Below, in pieces: positions 12,543 to 19,259 of a DNA stretch of 48,022 nt. The translations under genes and the position numbers were made by a program. The notes below the pieces were generated by a model. The model was not told where the DNA came from. It saw nothing but the letters and a program-made list of their open reading frames with translations, and searched no databases. Every line of letters begins with the position of its first letter. Position 1 is the stretch's first letter. The stretch is from Candidatus Bipolaricaulota bacterium (GTDB taxonomy: Bacteria > Bipolaricaulota > Bipolaricaulia > Bipolaricaulales > Bipolaricaulaceae): NCBI GenBank assembly GCA_938083225.1, contig CALKCH010000044.1:1-48022 (forward strand), in the 5' to 3' direction.

Positions 12543-13640
12543 ATGCCGGAGACCACCGTCCTCTTGTTCGATCGCGGGGGGCGGGACATCGTGTCCCGAG
12601 TGCGCACAGCCGGGGCCAAAAGCGTGGTGGAGCGCCTTCACGCCTTCCCCGAAGTCCGGAAAATCGTGGTGGCCACAGCCGACCCCGTGGCGTGGGAAGG
12701 GGAAAACTGCGAGATCGCCCTCGACCCCCCGGGAAATTGGCACTTCGGAGCCCAGTTCGACGCGCTAGTGGCCAGGCATAAGCCCCGCCGCATCCTGTAC
12801 CTGGCCAGCGGGGCGGGCCTCCTCATGGCGGATGAGGAATGGCAAGGCCTTCTACGCGCTGATTTTCCCGAACCTTTCGCTGTCCTGAACAACTTCTACT
12901 CCACCGACTTGGCATTGATTGTGCCCCCTTGGCCTATTCCCGACCTTCCCCGAGACAACCCCCTGGGCATGCGCCTTTGGCAAGCAGGTTACACCTGCTA
13001 TGAACTGCCGCGGTCCGCTGCCACCCAATTGGACCTCGATACTCCCGGCGAGCTCCAGGTCCTCGCCCTCCATCCGGATCTTCCCCCGGGCGTTCGGGAA
13101 GTGTTGGCCAAGATTCCCACGGCCAAGGCCCAGGCCCTTTTGGAGGCCATCGTGGACCCAGAGGCGGAGGTGGTCCTCATTGGTCGGGTGAGTGGCCATC
13201 TCCTGCGCTATTTGGATCAGGAAGCGGCATGTCATTTCCGTGTGGTTTCTGAGGAGCGGGGCATGGAGGCCAGCGGACGGGCCGAACGCGGAGCCGTGCT
13301 CTCCCTCCTCGGCCTTTGGGCGGAGCGTACCGGTCCAGCTGGGCTCGTGCGGGCTCTCGAGCGCCTCGGCGATGTGGTGGTGTGGGACATCCGGGTGTTC
13401 ATGGGGCACTTGGGGGTATGGCCACCTCCGGAGGAGCGCTATGCCTGCGATCTCTTGGAGTACGAAAAGGTGGGGGACCCGCGCTTGCGGGAATTGGTGC
13501 AAACCTGCGCGGCAAGCGCTACTCCTTTCCTCCTCGGCGGGCATTCCCTCGTCTCCGGCGGCATGTATCTGGCCGTGGAGCTGGCCTGGCGAGAAAGACA
13601 TGTGGAACGCCGCTTTCGGCCCCTTCCATTTGGAGGATAG
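12543..13640 (+). CDS. Unknown protein, possibly with an N-terminal NTP-transferase-like fold
   Basis: 365 residues, cytosolic (no signal or membrane helix). I do not recognise the family with certainty. The first 175 or so residues run like a small nucleotidyltransferase of the MobA/CofC type: alternating beta/alpha, an acidic segment LYLASGAGLLM where such enzymes have a metal/nucleotide loop, and LDLDTPGEL, close to the DxDTPxDL end of that fold. The rest (about 190-365) is separate: LIGRVSGHLLRYL, a glycine-rich ESRG-like SEERGMEASG, and LLGGHSLVSGGMYL. It sits 3 bp after rpsR and 2 bp before the SHMT-GcvT fusion, so it is translated with them. A role in coenzyme or one-carbon metabolism is conjecture. 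Confidence 0.7.
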   Translation: MPETTVLLFDRGGRDIVSRVRTAGAKSVVERLHAFPEVRKIVVATADPVAWEGENCEIALDPPGNWHFGAQFDALVARHKPRRILYLASGAGLLMADEEWQGLLRADFPEPFAVLNNFYSTDLALIVPPWPIPDLPRDNPLGMRLWQAGYTCYELPRSAATQLDLDTPGELQVLALHPDLPPGVREVLAKIPTAKAQALLEAIVDPEAEVVLIGRVSGHLLRYLDQEAACHFRVVSEERGMEASGRAERGAVLSLLGLWAERTGPAGLVRALERLGDVVVWDIRVFMGHLGVWPPPEERYACDLLEYEKVGDPRLRELVQTCAASATPFLLGGHSLVSGGMYLAVELAWRERHVERRFRPLPFGG

Positions 13641-13642
13641 CC

Positions 13643-16600
13643 ATGGGAACGATGGACAAGAACATTTGGAAGATGGGGTTGGCGGAAATCGACCGGGTGG
13701 TGGCCGAGCTCGCAGAGGCTGAGGAACGTCGGCAACAGGAAAAAATCATTCTCATCCCCTCCGAGTCCCTAACGCCACGCGCGGTGCGGGAGGCTTTGGG
13801 CTCGGCGTTTACCTCGATCTACGCTGAAGGCTACCCGCGCGAAGAAAGCCTGCGTCTCCCTGAGGCGCGCCTTTCCGATCTTGAGGAACAACTGGCCTAT
13901 TACCGTCGCTACGGCGACCGTCGGTTCTATAAGGGTGTGGAGTTAGCCGATGTGGTAGAGGCTTTGGCCTGCCGAAGGTGCGCGGAGTGCCTGGCCACGG
14001 AAGATGTTCCGCCAGAGGCCATCTACGTGAACATTCAACCCCTTTCCGGAGCTGCCGCCAACCTCGCGGTTTACGAGGCCCTGCTCAAACCCGGGGACAC
14101 CCTCATGGCCATGGACCTCACCCAGGGCGGACATCTTTCCCACGGCTCCCCGTTCCACGTGTCCGGCCGCCGCTACCGCATCGTCACGTATGGCGTCGAT
14201 CCCAAAACGGAGCGTTTGGATTACGACCGCATTGCTGATATCGCCAAGCGCGAAAAGCCCAAGATGATCGTGGCTGGATACACTTCGTATCCTTGGGCTC
14301 CTGACTGGAAAGCATTTCGGGAGATCGCTTCTTCCGTGGGGGCTTTCCTGTTTGCAGATGTGGCTCACACGGCAGGAATGGTCATCGCCGGAGCTTATCC
14401 TACTCCCGTGGGCTACGCCGATGTGGTCATGTTCACCACCCACAAGACTCTGTGTGGGCCACGGGGTGCGGTCATCCTCTCTTTCGATCCAGAGATCGCC
14501 ACTCGCATTGACCAAGCCGTGTTTCCCGGAGCCCAGGGAGGCCCCCATGTGAACAAGTTTGCTGGCATCGCGGTGGCCTTCGCCCTGGCCAAGACCCCGG
14601 CGTTCAGAAACCTCATGTTCCGCATCGTGGAGAACGCCAAAGCCTTGGCGCAGGCTTTGGAAAAGGAAGGACTGCGCCTATGTTATGGCGGGACCAACAC
14701 CCACCTCCTCGTTTTGGATCTCCGGGCTATTCCCACCAAGAACGGGAATCCCCTCATGGGCGAGATCGCTGCCCGAATCCTCGATTTGGCGGGAATCGTG
14801 GCCAACAAGAACACCATCCCGGGCGACACCTCCGCGGCTGATGCCCGCGGCATTCGCTACGGAACCCCGTGGGTAACCCAGCGGGGCATGGGCGAGAGGG
14901 AAATGCAGGAAATCGCGGAGATCACAGGGATGGTGCTTCGGGAAATCCGCCCCTTCACGTACCACGGGGTACGCGGTCCCCTGCCGCGGGGAAAGATTCC
15001 TTCCTCTGTGCTGCGGGAAGCCAGGGATCGGGTACAAAGCCTCTTGGCCCGCTTCGGCGTAGCGGTAGTGGAGCGTGTTGGGGTAAGCACTTCTAACCCC
15101 AACGGAACCCAAGCGCTCCTGGTGCGAGGAGGCCGGGCCGATCATTTGTTGCACGAGGCTTCCACCGCCCACGTCTTAGGGCTTGAGGAAGGCCAAGCCA
15201 CCCGCGCTCTCTTCCTCACTCCCGAGGGCACGGTGCTCGGTGAAGCGGTGATCGGGAAATTGCCTCCGGACGAACTGGGCCGGCCGCGGTTTGTAGTCCT
15301 CACGCCAGAAAAATACGCGGAAGACTTACGAGAGTGGCTCTCCAGTTTGTCCGACGGATATGTGCTTTTTGATCCGCACGACATTTACCGCAAGGCACAA
15401 GGTCCAGCAGTGGTGGAGGAATTCTCTGGAACCGCCGCATTCTCCCTGGAAGGAAAGGAGATCCAGGTGAAAGATGGCTGCGCCCAAGCGCATTTCCTTG
15501 GCCTCACCGGCCGTGCCGAGGAGCTCGCCAAGACTCACCCCGAGCTTTTTGTTCTGAGCAAGCCCTATTTCGTGGGTGGGCAAAACCTTCGGGGAGAAGG
15601 GCAGAAGACCCCGTATTCACCCCGAGTTCCCGAGCGCCCGGTCCAGACCACGCCGTTGACTTCCTGGCATCGAGAGGTTAGGGCTCGCCTGACCACGTTC
15701 GCCGGCTACGAGATGCCCCTTTGGTACACCTCGGCTCTGGCCGAGCACCGGGCGGTGCGGGAAAGAGCGGGCCTCTTCGACCTCGGCCACATGGGGGTGT
15801 TCGAGGTTTCTGGCCGCTATGCCGAAAGCTTCCTTAACCTTGTGACCACCAATTACGCGGGCTGGCTCCATCCTGGCCAATCCCAGTACGGTTTTCTTCT
15901 CGATCCCGCCGGAGAGGTGGTCGATGATCTCATGGTGTATCGGGTGGCCCGGGATCGGTTCATCCTTGTCGTCAACGCGGCCAACGAGCTGAAGGATTGG
16001 GATTGGCTTTGCGCACTCAACGGCGGGCAGGCTCCGCTGGATCCTGATCGGCCGTGGGTAAAGCTGGACGGTCCAGTAGAGTTACGCAATCTCAAGGAGA
16101 AAGAGGGGCTAGTGGATGTGGCCCTCCAGGGTCCAGCTTCCCGCGCTATTCTTTTGCGTCTCCTTTCCAAGCGCGATCAGCGCCGCCTGGTAGCCCTCCG
16201 CCGCACCGAATTCCTCGAGCTCTCCCTACAGGGAGTCCAGCTTTTCTGCGCCCGCACGGGCTACACGGGCGAGCCCCTGGGGTATGAGCTTTTGCTCCCG
16301 AAATCTGCGGCCCAGAATATTTGGGAGAGTTTGTTGGATGCAGGACGGGAGAAGGGCTTGATCCCCTGCGGTTTGGCTGCGCGGGACTCCCTGCGTACGG
16401 AAGCAGGTTTGCCTCTTTATGGGCACGAGCTTGCTGGTCCCCATCACATTCTTCCCCACGAGGCGGGCTTTGCTCCCTATGTGAAGCTTCACAAAGCTTT
16501 CTTCATCGGCCGCGCCGCCTATCTAGAGATGTTGGCCCGCTGGACCCGGGAAGTGGTGCGGTTCATGGTGGCTCCAGGGCACCGGCCCATCCGGGCAGGA

Positions 16601-16849
16601 GCGCCTGTAGTGGATGAGACAGGAACCGTGGTGGGGACGGTCACAAGCTGCGTGGTCTTGGAGGAGGGACAGGTGGGGATGGCCGTGGTGCCGCGCGAGA
16701 TGGCTGAACCCGGAACCTCGCTCGGCTTTGGGGTGAGCGAGGGATCAGGTGAAATCAAAATAGGCTCGCGGCTTCCGCTCATCGTATGGGGCAAAGTAGT
16801 GCCCCGCTTCCTGCGGCGAGAGGCCTTGCCCGCGCCCGGGGAGGAATGA
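13643..16849 (+). CDS. Serine hydroxymethyltransferase / aminomethyltransferase (T protein) fusion
   Basis: A 1068-residue chain joining two tetrahydrofolate enzymes. Residues 1 to about 470 are SHMT (serine + THF to glycine + methylene-THF): ILIPSES, DVAHTAGM, and TTHKTLCGPRG with the PLP lysine at K268. Residues 669-1068 are GcvT, the T protein of glycine cleavage (aminomethyl-H protein + THF to methylene-THF + NH3): HMGVFEVSG, VVDDLMVYR with the conserved Asp at 761-762, and CGLAARDSLRTEAGLPLYGHEL. Between them (about 488-660) lies a third, degenerate GcvT-like half: GGRADHLLHEAST, LEEGQATRALFLTPEGTVLG and RFVVLT parallel the true GcvT segment but lack its Asp pair. ATG 13643 follows the previous stop by 2 bp; GGAGG is 7 nt upstream. 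The stop abuts that of the convergent Lon-like gene in TGATCA. Confidence 0.95.
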   Translation: MGTMDKNIWKMGLAEIDRVVAELAEAEERRQQEKIILIPSESLTPRAVREALGSAFTSIYAEGYPREESLRLPEARLSDLEEQLAYYRRYGDRRFYKGVELADVVEALACRRCAECLATEDVPPEAIYVNIQPLSGAAANLAVYEALLKPGDTLMAMDLTQGGHLSHGSPFHVSGRRYRIVTYGVDPKTERLDYDRIADIAKREKPKMIVAGYTSYPWAPDWKAFREIASSVGAFLFADVAHTAGMVIAGAYPTPVGYADVVMFTTHKTLCGPRGAVILSFDPEIATRIDQAVFPGAQGGPHVNKFAGIAVAFALAKTPAFRNLMFRIVENAKALAQALEKEGLRLCYGGTNTHLLVLDLRAIPTKNGNPLMGEIAARILDLAGIVANKNTIPGDTSAADARGIRYGTPWVTQRGMGEREMQEIAEITGMVLREIRPFTYHGVRGPLPRGKIPSSVLREARDRVQSLLARFGVAVVERVGVSTSNPNGTQALLVRGGRADHLLHEASTAHVLGLEEGQATRALFLTPEGTVLGEAVIGKLPPDELGRPRFVVLTPEKYAEDLREWLSSLSDGYVLFDPHDIYRKAQGPAVVEEFSGTAAFSLEGKEIQVKDGCAQAHFLGLTGRAEELAKTHPELFVLSKPYFVGGQNLRGEGQKTPYSPRVPERPVQTTPLTSWHREVRARLTTFAGYEMPLWYTSALAEHRAVRERAGLFDLGHMGVFEVSGRYAESFLNLVTTNYAGWLHPGQSQYGFLLDPAGEVVDDLMVYRVARDRFILVVNAANELKDWDWLCALNGGQAPLDPDRPWVKLDGPVELRNLKEKEGLVDVALQGPASRAILLRLLSKRDQRRLVALRRTEFLELSLQGVQLFCARTGYTGEPLGYELLLPKSAAQNIWESLLDAGREKGLIPCGLAARDSLRTEAGLPLYGHELAGPHHILPHEAGFAPYVKLHKAFFIGRAAYLEMLARWTREVVRFMVAPGHRPIRAGAPVVDETGTVVGTVTSCVVLEEGQVGMAVVPREMAEPGTSLGFGVSEGSGEIKIGSRLPLIVWGKVVPRFLRREALPAPGEE

Positions 16850-19243
16850 TCACTCCCCTTTTTCTTTCTCTTCCTCAACGCTTTTCTTGATCTCCTCGAG
16901 TTTTTTCTGGACGAGCCTGTAGAGAGTCCCCTCCGGATAAGCACCTGTTTCGTCGGGCCGACCGGCAGGCAATCCCGACAGGAGCTCCACCATTTCCTCC
17001 ACGGTATCACAGGCCCAAACGTGGAATTTCCCCTGGGCCACAGCTTCCACGACCTCTTCAGGAAGCATAAGCTCGTCCACATTCCGGCGGGGGATCACCA
17101 CCCCTTGTTCTCCCGTAAGCCCAAGTTCTTTGCACACGAGATAGTGGCCATAGATTTTCTCGTTGATCCCGCCCACAGGTTGGAGGTTCCCTTTTTGGTC
17201 AATGGCCCCGGTCACCGCGATTCCCTGTTGAAAGGGAACTCCCGAGAGGGCAGAAAGGAGGGCACAGAGCTCGGCGGCAGAGGCCGAGTCTCCTTCCACT
17301 CCAGAATACGCTTGTTCCATGGCCAAGCTGGCGGAGAGGGTGAGCGGAGCTTTCAGGGCAAAACGTTCCCCGAAGTAAGATTTGAGGATCATCACGCCCT
17401 TGGTGTGGATTTTTCCGCCCAGCTCGGCCTCGCGCTCGATATCCACGACCCCGGATTTACCGACAAACACGTTGGCGGTGACCCGTTGAGGCCGGCCGAA
17501 CGCGAAATCACCGAGGTCCACCACAGCCAGGCCATTCACCTGGCCCACAGCCTGGCCCCTAAGTTCCACCACGATCTTTTCCCGCTGGATCCACTCCCGC
17601 ACTTTCTCCGCCAGCAACGATTGCCGAGTTCTCCCCTTCTCAATGGCCCGGCGCACGTGCTCGGCCCCCACCACGCTTGCGCCGTCTTGGCGCGCCCAAA
17701 AACTGGCCTCCTCCACAAGGGCGGTGAGGACAGAAAATCGGGTGGAGAGCTTCCTCTGGTCACCGGCGAGCTCCGCTGCGTACTCCACCACCCGAGCCAC
17801 CGCCTCCGCGGAAAACGGGAGAACCTCGGGATTCTCCAGCTCCCGGGCGCGGATGAACCGGGCGACCGCCCAAGCCCCCTCCTCTGTCCAGGGCATCTCC
17901 GTATCGAAATCCGCGCGGATGGTGAATAGTTTCCGAAAGTCCTCGTCGTAAAAGTAGAGAAGATAGTAAAGCCAAAGCGGGCCGATGAGGATGACCTTTA
18001 CCTGGAGGGGCACAGGCTCGGGACGCAAGCCCTCGGTGGAGGCGTAGCCCAGCATTTGTGCGGGGTCCTCCACCCGAATCTCCCCGGTCTTGAGAGCAAT
18101 CTTCAGGGCCGTCCAGGAAAGGGGGAATTGCAGGAGGTTCAAGGCGGAGAGGACCAGATACCCGCCGTTGGCCCGGTGCAGCGCTCCCGCACGGATTTGG
18201 GTGAAGTCGGTGGTCACCACCCCGAACTGTACCCGCCGCTCCACCGTGCCAAACAAGTTGATGTAGGTGGCGTTTTCCTCCACCACCACCGGCGCACCCT
18301 TCGCGCCAGACCGATCCACAAGAAGATTGACGCGGTAGCGAAGGTATCGGTCGGGCTCAGCGAGAGGAATGGGCATTTGAGGTTTATTTTTTCCGGCAAG
18401 GAGCGTTTCCAGGTGGGTCACGATGTCGTCTTCTACGGCCTTGAGAAACTCCAAAACGCGGGGAATGTCTGCGTATTTAGCCCGCAGTTGAGCTAAGCGG
18501 GGGCTGATGAGAAAACGTACAGCCTCCTGGGTGAGCTTCTTTTGCTGTTCTTGCCAGGACTCCTCCAGCTCTCCCAGTCGCCGGAACGCTTCCCGCACGA
18601 GGTCCTGGATCTCGCCCTGCTTGCGCAAAATCCCCGCCCGTTCTTCCTCGGGCAGGGACTGAAACTCCTCGTGGGAGTAGGGAGAACCATCGGGCTTGAG
18701 AGGTATGGTGTTGAGGCCGAACGGAGTGCGCTGAAGCGTGAAACCGTGAGCCTTAGCTTCGCTCTCGAGCTCCCGAAAAATCTCCTCCCGGCGAGCCTCG
18801 AATCCCTCCCGCTCCCGCCGTACCCGAGCTTTCACCTCCTCCGCTTCCAGCACCCGGGGAAGCTCCCGGTCCAAAAAGACGAGGAACCTCTCCATATCCT
18901 CTTGAAACTCGCGACCCCGCCCCGGCGGAAGGAGAAGGTAGCGCGGCGTGTGAGGCGTAGAAAAATTGTGGACATAACACACGTCAGGAGGAACAGGCTG
19001 GTCTTTTGACAGCTCCTCCAAGAATTGGGTTACCGCTGAAGTCTTTCCCAAACCAGCCTCACCGGCTACGTACACGTTGTACCGGTGCTTAGACCCTTTC
19101 AGGCTCAAGCCCACCTGCAGGGCCTCCAGGGCCCGCTCTTGGCCGATGATGCCCGAAAGGGGGGCGAGCTCGGCAGTCGTGGAGAAGGTGAACACGTGGG
19201 GGTCCAACCGCCGCCGCAGCTTCTCAGGAGATAGACACTCCAT
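16850..19243 (-). CDS. Lon-like ATP-dependent protease (AAA_32 plus Lon C-terminal domain)
   Basis: 797 residues. Lon-family protease that unfolds and degrades proteins. P-loop GEAGLGKTS at 61-69 opens the AAA part; a long coiled insertion (about 130-270, Glu/Arg/Gln-rich) follows; the Lon peptidase domain closes the chain, with the Ser/Lys dyad in GDSAS (S653) and GINEKIYG (K696), 43 residues apart as in E. coli Lon. It lacks the classical Lon N-terminal LAN domain, matching the soluble LonC/AAA_32 group (often annotated as ATP-binding protein). ATG 19243 or GTG 19246 can start it; no Shine-Dalgarno is present, and a -10 lies 8-11 nt upstream. Divergent from the phospholipase D-like gene, 23 bp away. 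Confidence 0.92.
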   Translation of the reverse strand: MECLSPEKLRRRLDPHVFTFSTTAELAPLSGIIGQERALEALQVGLSLKGSKHRYNVYVAGEAGLGKTSAVTQFLEELSKDQPVPPDVCYVHNFSTPHTPRYLLLPPGRGREFQEDMERFLVFLDRELPRVLEAEEVKARVRREREGFEARREEIFRELESEAKAHGFTLQRTPFGLNTIPLKPDGSPYSHEEFQSLPEEERAGILRKQGEIQDLVREAFRRLGELEESWQEQQKKLTQEAVRFLISPRLAQLRAKYADIPRVLEFLKAVEDDIVTHLETLLAGKNKPQMPIPLAEPDRYLRYRVNLLVDRSGAKGAPVVVEENATYINLFGTVERRVQFGVVTTDFTQIRAGALHRANGGYLVLSALNLLQFPLSWTALKIALKTGEIRVEDPAQMLGYASTEGLRPEPVPLQVKVILIGPLWLYYLLYFYDEDFRKLFTIRADFDTEMPWTEEGAWAVARFIRARELENPEVLPFSAEAVARVVEYAAELAGDQRKLSTRFSVLTALVEEASFWARQDGASVVGAEHVRRAIEKGRTRQSLLAEKVREWIQREKIVVELRGQAVGQVNGLAVVDLGDFAFGRPQRVTANVFVGKSGVVDIEREAELGGKIHTKGVMILKSYFGERFALKAPLTLSASLAMEQAYSGVEGDSASAAELCALLSALSGVPFQQGIAVTGAIDQKGNLQPVGGINEKIYGHYLVCKELGLTGEQGVVIPRRNVDELMLPEEVVEAVAQGKFHVWACDTVEEMVELLSGLPAGRPDETGAYPEGTLYRLVQKKLEEIKKSVEEEKEKGE

Positions 19244-19259
19244 CACAGCAAAGTATCAT
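19232..19259 (+). promoter_or_regulatory. Leaderless promoter of the phospholipase D-like gene
   Basis: TAGACA (19232-19237), 16-nt spacer, TATCAT (19254-19259), 7 nt before ATG 19267. The -35 lies inside the coding region of the divergent Lon-like gene. Confidence 0.5.

Follow-up and report, generated by a model that had tools for sequence, protein, structure and literature searches.

Organization of the locus

The window, i.e. the whole 48,022-nucleotide stretch of Candidatus Bipolaricaulota DNA that was analyzed, includes an open frame that codes, in one piece and with zero internal stops, for a 1068-amino acid chain. The chain consists of a serine hydroxymethyltransferase (SHMT), a decayed copy of the glycine cleavage T-protein (GcvT), and a complete GcvT, in that order. 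The features of the locus are as follows.

12543-13640, plus strand: uncharacterized 365-amino acid protein, 2 bp upstream of the fusion gene
13643-16849, plus strand: SHMT - GcvT remnant - GcvT fusion gene, 1068 amino acids (frame, Pfam, AlphaFold2 full-length model)
13679-14944, plus strand: SHMT part, residues 13-434 (PF00464, NF000586, fold match)
14444-14446, plus strand: PLP-binding lysine K268 (HKT), invariant in 69 homologues
14945-15058, plus strand: extension at the C-terminus of SHMT, residues 435-472 (within residues 153-472, which matched the longer SHMT model NF010094)
15104-15421, plus strand: core of the GcvT remnant, residues 488-593, comprising the GcvT middle subdomain and an insertion (PF01571, hhalign, PDB folds)
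15353-15421, plus strand: residues 571-593 (DGYVLFDPHDIYRKAQGPAVVEE), the remnant's insertion, which aligns with that of the C-terminal GcvT
15422-15556, plus strand: fast evolving tail of the remnant, residues 594-638 (no GcvT sequence match, dN/dS)
15560-15577, plus strand: exit motif KPYFVG, residues 640-645, counterpart of KAFFIG at 951-956, aligned in the long forms
15641-16810, plus strand: complete GcvT, residues 667-1056 (PF01571, TIGR00528)
15923-15928, plus strand: catalytic Asp pair D761-D762 of GcvT, invariant in 69 homologues
16004-16084, plus strand: insertion-bearing segment of the complete GcvT, residues 788-814 (comparison with standalone GcvTs)

The AlphaFold2 model of the full-length chain has a pLDDT of 91.4 and a pTM of 0.90, which suggests, as judged from pTM alone, that the domains are confidently positioned relative to one another. 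A gene for a Lon-like protease with a LonB-type AAA domain (16850-19246, minus strand) is convergent with the fusion gene and adjoins it in many Bipolaricaulota.

The SHMT and GcvT parts

The SHMT part matched PF00464 (E 2.7e-115, 385.6 bits, cut-off 27) and NF000586 (427.3 bits, cut-off 335), and its top fold match was the Bacillus stearothermophilus SHMT, with a TM-score of 0.95 by target. Residues H267 and K268 are invariant in an alignment of 69 homologues, and we take K268 to be the lysine that binds PLP, as established for SHMTs. This part resembles GlyA in the catalytic lysine and the fold but differs from it in that the C-terminus is fused to GcvT-derived domains. Residues about 64-92 (13832-13918) are additional residues between YAEGYP and RFYKG that are common to the fusion homologues; the usual arrangement is presumably YAEGYP-RYYGG.

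At the other end of the chain, residues 672-942 matched PF01571 (GCV_T) with an E value of 2.7e-77 and 259.9 bits. The gcvT equivalog model TIGR00528 scored 237.1 bits, slightly above its cut-off of 235.85, while the score for PRK00389 was 290, below 300, and that for GCV_T_C was slightly below the cut-off. This region is like the known GcvTs (1yx2, 1woo, 3a8i) in its Asp pair, folate domain, and C-terminal barrel. The earlier note had read the chain as an SHMT with K268 and a complete GcvT with D761 and D762, a reading that these matches and the conservation of both sites confirm. Unlike the known GcvTs, the fusion version is joined to SHMT, is preceded by a decayed second copy, and has about 16 residues inserted behind the KDWDWL segment. 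This insertion was present in all fusion GcvTs examined and missing from 16 of 16 standalone GcvTs from Chloroflexota, Bipolaricaulota, and Bathyarchaeota; the GcvTs of B. subtilis and T. maritima have a gap at the same point.

The middle piece is a remnant of GcvT

When scanned alone, the middle piece matched positions 50-127 of the 255 in PF01571 with an E value of 2.7e-5 and a score of 24.0, slightly below the curated cut-off of 25.6, and the middle pieces of relatives matched the same model with E values down to 1.1e-44. Comparison of the short middle pieces with the fusion's own GcvT using hhalign gave a probability of 99.3% (E 4.8e-20), while the negative control against SHMT gave 0.2%. 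This alignment reproduced the pairs of segments from which the homology had been proposed earlier, namely GGRADHLL with SGRYAESFL, EEGQATRALFL with HPGQSQYGFLL, and RFVVLT with RFILVV. The homology of the middle piece to GcvT therefore stands, although the proposed extent, the N-terminal half of GcvT, does not, since the first 50 or so GcvT residues are missing. What is retained corresponds roughly to GcvT positions 50-155 plus the C-terminal exit motif KPYFVG. The Asp pair, already described as absent, is replaced by GE in the window protein, which has also lost the NAAN segment, all of the outer subdomain, and the barrel. The alignments of the short forms by hhalign, together with the long forms, indicate that the ALQGP region was lost from the short-form middle pieces, and hhalign found no sequence match to GcvT for residues 594-638 of these forms. 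A conserved GP at residue 587 was considered as a candidate for the ALQGP motif and rejected, as both hhalign and the long forms place it in the shared insertion.

Searching the PDB by sequence with the middle piece returned a single chance-level match, and fold comparison was therefore needed. The AlphaFold2 model of the isolated domain is a confident compact fold (pLDDT 91, pTM 0.86), and its 49 matches in the PDB at E<=0.001 belong exclusively to the GcvT superfamily: GcvT, IBA57, YgfZ, dimethylglycine dehydrogenase/oxidase, sarcosine oxidase, and LigM or DMSP demethylase. The domain thus has the GcvT/YgfZ-type fold that the earlier note anticipated. The tightest superposition was with the E. 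coli GcvT 1vlo (83 columns, 1.9 Å); longer alignments had a large rmsd, so that good superposition is limited to the core subdomain.

The stretch between SHMT and the complete GcvT varied from about 170 to 420 residues across the homologues, and the copy of GcvT that it contains (the first copy) was found in a graded series. The first copy of the Chloroflexota homologue L150 matched the GcvT model from position 1 to 291 (8.7e-62) and retains the Asp pair, the NAAN segment, and much of the RNGYT and ARD regions. That of L089 shares 34% identity with the complete GcvT of the same protein across 310 residues (7.5e-49) and has also retained the Asp pair. These two are the least decayed first copies, in which several aligned pocket residues are still present. 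Less of the first copy is retained in L149, L091, L088, and L053, and only the middle subdomain is found in the window protein. Both residues of the Asp pair are kept in L149 and L091, one in L053, L088, and L117, and none in L151 and the window protein. The C-terminal barrel was absent from every first copy examined. These living sequences suggest an order of decay in which the barrel would have been lost before single catalytic residues, and these before the outer subdomain. Three homologues from one Chloroflexota group (L146, L147, and L157) have a longer middle piece and an additional segment, DPLAQVQLRGPVWGALLGGLWREGD, ahead of the complete GcvT.

The remnant evolves faster than both neighboring domains, and the middle domain was kept in every full-length fusion aligned. 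For pairs with dS below 1 the dN/dS of the remnant core was 0.12-0.30, and that of the highly variable tail was 0.2-0.53 (unsaturated pairs, dS below 1); the core is, as judged from these ratios, subject to purifying selection. Ten residues are near-invariant across phyla: G496, W565, D571, G572, D577, D580, G587, K640, F643, and G645, the last three of which are the nearly invariant positions of the exit motif in the 69 homologues. The insertion at 571-593 is the best-conserved stretch of the middle piece, and the strongest conservation in the remnant thus falls on the insertion and the exit motif, away from the former pocket.

Distribution and genetic context

The fusion chain had a match in 56 of 60 relatives. 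It was found in families f1, f2, f4, and f5, some copies there being truncated where a contig stops; in f3, f6, and f8, SHMT and GcvT are encoded separately. Of 301 evenly sampled Chloroflexota genomes, at least 53 (counted from the list) have a frame of this family with at least 1000 residues. Other records of the fusion came from Spirochaetota, Desulfarculaceae, Bdellovibrio, Deltaproteobacteria, and Actinomycetes, among which the labels of draft genomes need care. The survey across genomes that had been proposed earlier thus found a recurrent fusion that is widespread in Bipolaricaulota and Chloroflexota and extends to other phyla.

Among 24 fusion genomes, a further SHMT frame was found in three (G071, G072, and G091), a separate GcvT-sized frame in one (G066), YgfZ-sized frames in two (G062 and G067), and two fusions in another two (G050 and G083); the remaining genomes have the fusion alone. 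Two genomes outside this set (G010 and G024) have a separate SHMT besides the fusion. The fusion is usually the sole SHMT and GcvT of its genome. The two fusions differ from each other both in G050 (L117 and L116) and in G083 (L149 and G083:C263), and in the latter genome one middle copy is long and less decayed and the other is short.

The P-protein was found in 56 of 60 relatives and in 14 of 15 other genomes, and is encoded in the flanks of the fusion gene at about 17 loci, mostly from Chloroflexota and Spirochaetota. The source genome of the window (920 kb, 61 contigs, 87% complete) has no second match to the fusion chain and includes a partial gcvH that runs into a contig end. A search of this assembly for gcvP did not find the gene, probably because the assembly is incomplete. 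The 365-amino acid protein encoded upstream had no match in Pfam or NCBIfam. It is also found directly upstream of the fusion in Bipolaricaulota, in L049 and L088 (Chloroflexota), and in L089 and L115, and its GHSLVSGG, NNFYS, and DTP motifs are strongly conserved. Its gene is a probable operon partner, and the protein a possible partner of the enzyme.

Origin and proposed role of the middle domain

The first copies carry the same insertion of about 16 residues as the fusion GcvTs. In a tree that included YgfZ-like sequences the first copies formed one clade (support 100/99) and the fusion GcvTs another (97/86), and both grouped together against standalone GcvT and YgfZ with a support of 100/100. 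Removal of the insertion columns lowered the support of this joint group to 90/99.8, with long branches present, and in a tree without YgfZ the fusion GcvTs were unresolved between the first copies and the standalone GcvTs. On the basis of the shared insertion and of the grouping against standalone GcvT and YgfZ, the middle copy is assigned to the fusion lineage itself, and the simplest reading would be that an SHMT-GcvT gene underwent a single internal tandem duplication in an ancestor of the sampled lineages. The ancestral GcvT would already have carried the insertion when the GcvT part was duplicated, and later losses from the inner copy would have comprised the C-terminal barrel, the residues for catalysis and folate binding, and the greater part of the outer subdomain. 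The proposal of the earlier note, that GcvT was duplicated long ago and its first copy turned into a linker, is thus supported by the fold, the near-complete intermediates, the shared insertion, and the trees. Some of the fusion's spread may be due to horizontal transfer.

Two other origins were weighed against tandem duplication. Faulty assembly or sequencing that merged two or three adjacent genes might be suspected from the fragmentation of the draft genome into 61 contigs, but most relatives have the fusion, and it is seen again in many independent assemblies and in several phyla, including two relatives assembled as one contig (G011 and G021) and a Spirochaetota chromosome record (L056), so that we regard such an error as excluded. 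The presence of YgfZ and IBA57 among the fold matches could instead point to a separate GcvT paralogue inserted between SHMT and GcvT; these are separate proteins that have a GcvT-like fold without a role in glycine cleavage. A clade of the long first copies and the YgfZ-like sequences was rejected (p-AU 0.009). With this value and the insertion common to the middle copy and the fusion's own GcvT, a YgfZ origin was rejected, and descent from a paralogue of this kind is extremely unlikely.

With tandem duplication preferred for the origin, the role of the surviving piece was considered. A decaying spacer free of constraint and with no role of its own would agree with the faster evolution of the middle domain relative to both neighbors and with its highly variable tail, but it is very unlikely given the low dN/dS of the core, the ten near-invariant residues, the compact fold confidently modeled, and the persistence of the domain in every full-length fusion aligned. 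The remnant could also still bind folate, for instance by its polyglutamate tail or as a THF awaiting use, which would aid the transfer of methylene-THF between SHMT and GcvT. Its descent from a folate-binding fold, the Asp pair and further pocket residues of the least decayed copies, the purifying selection, and the use of the same cofactor by SHMT and GcvT all speak for this. Nevertheless, the window protein lacks the Asp pair, the NAAN segment, and the outer subdomain, and the most conserved residues lie outside the former pocket. The folate-binding role suggested in the earlier note is thus weakened for the window protein, as other aligned pocket residues kept by L150 and L089 are gone as well, and we consider it unlikely. 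A structural docking linker is the likelier role in this protein because the remnant is under purifying selection yet has neither catalytic nor folate residues.

Proposed function

Our preferred interpretation, which we hold to be probable, is a bifunctional one-carbon enzyme in which an in-gene GcvT remnant probably acts as a docking linker. Since the catalytic residues are kept in both end enzymes, both reactions are expected: the SHMT part would interconvert serine plus THF and glycine plus methylene-THF, and the GcvT part would interconvert aminomethyl-H-protein plus THF and methylene-THF plus NH3. The fusion would then be the SHMT of the cell and would also supply the T component that works with H and P as separate proteins. 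The docking role is proposed because of the constraint on the remnant, the conservation of its insertion and exit motif, and the confident placement by pTM. The middle subdomain, insertion, and exit motif would survive as a folded module with no catalysis of its own, whose probable role is to pack SHMT and GcvT against each other. A link between glycine cleavage and the formation or breakdown of serine is putative; that the remnant lines a passage between the active sites, holding SHMT and GcvT so that the folate-bound methylene group would be handed over without release and cleavage coupled to serine synthesis on one protein, is a doubtful, speculative proposal.

SHMT, GcvT, and fusions of GcvT as such were already known. 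Dimethylglycine dehydrogenase/oxidase, sarcosine oxidase alpha, and trimethylamine N-oxide demethylase are also fusions of a GcvT-like domain with a one-carbon enzyme, but the partner in these is not SHMT and a decayed second GcvT was not seen among the matches listed. Searches of the open-access literature turned up no published SHMT-GcvT fusion, nor a chain of this kind that includes a decayed GcvT copy from within the gene. An Acetothermia genome paper mentions breakdown of glycine and serine via the glycine cleavage system, and the word "fusion" is absent from it (PMC6092417).

The fusion family is an unusually complete record of the change of a duplicated enzyme into a structural linker, with living relatives that display successive stages of wear of a duplicated T-protein joining two enzymes. 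Methylene-THF connects SHMT with the glycine cleavage system in photorespiration, in amino acid fermentation, and in the reductive glycine pathway, and it has long been asked whether the two pass it to each other directly. With SHMT and GcvT naturally on a single chain, which usually provides the genome with its sole SHMT and T-protein, this question becomes directly testable.
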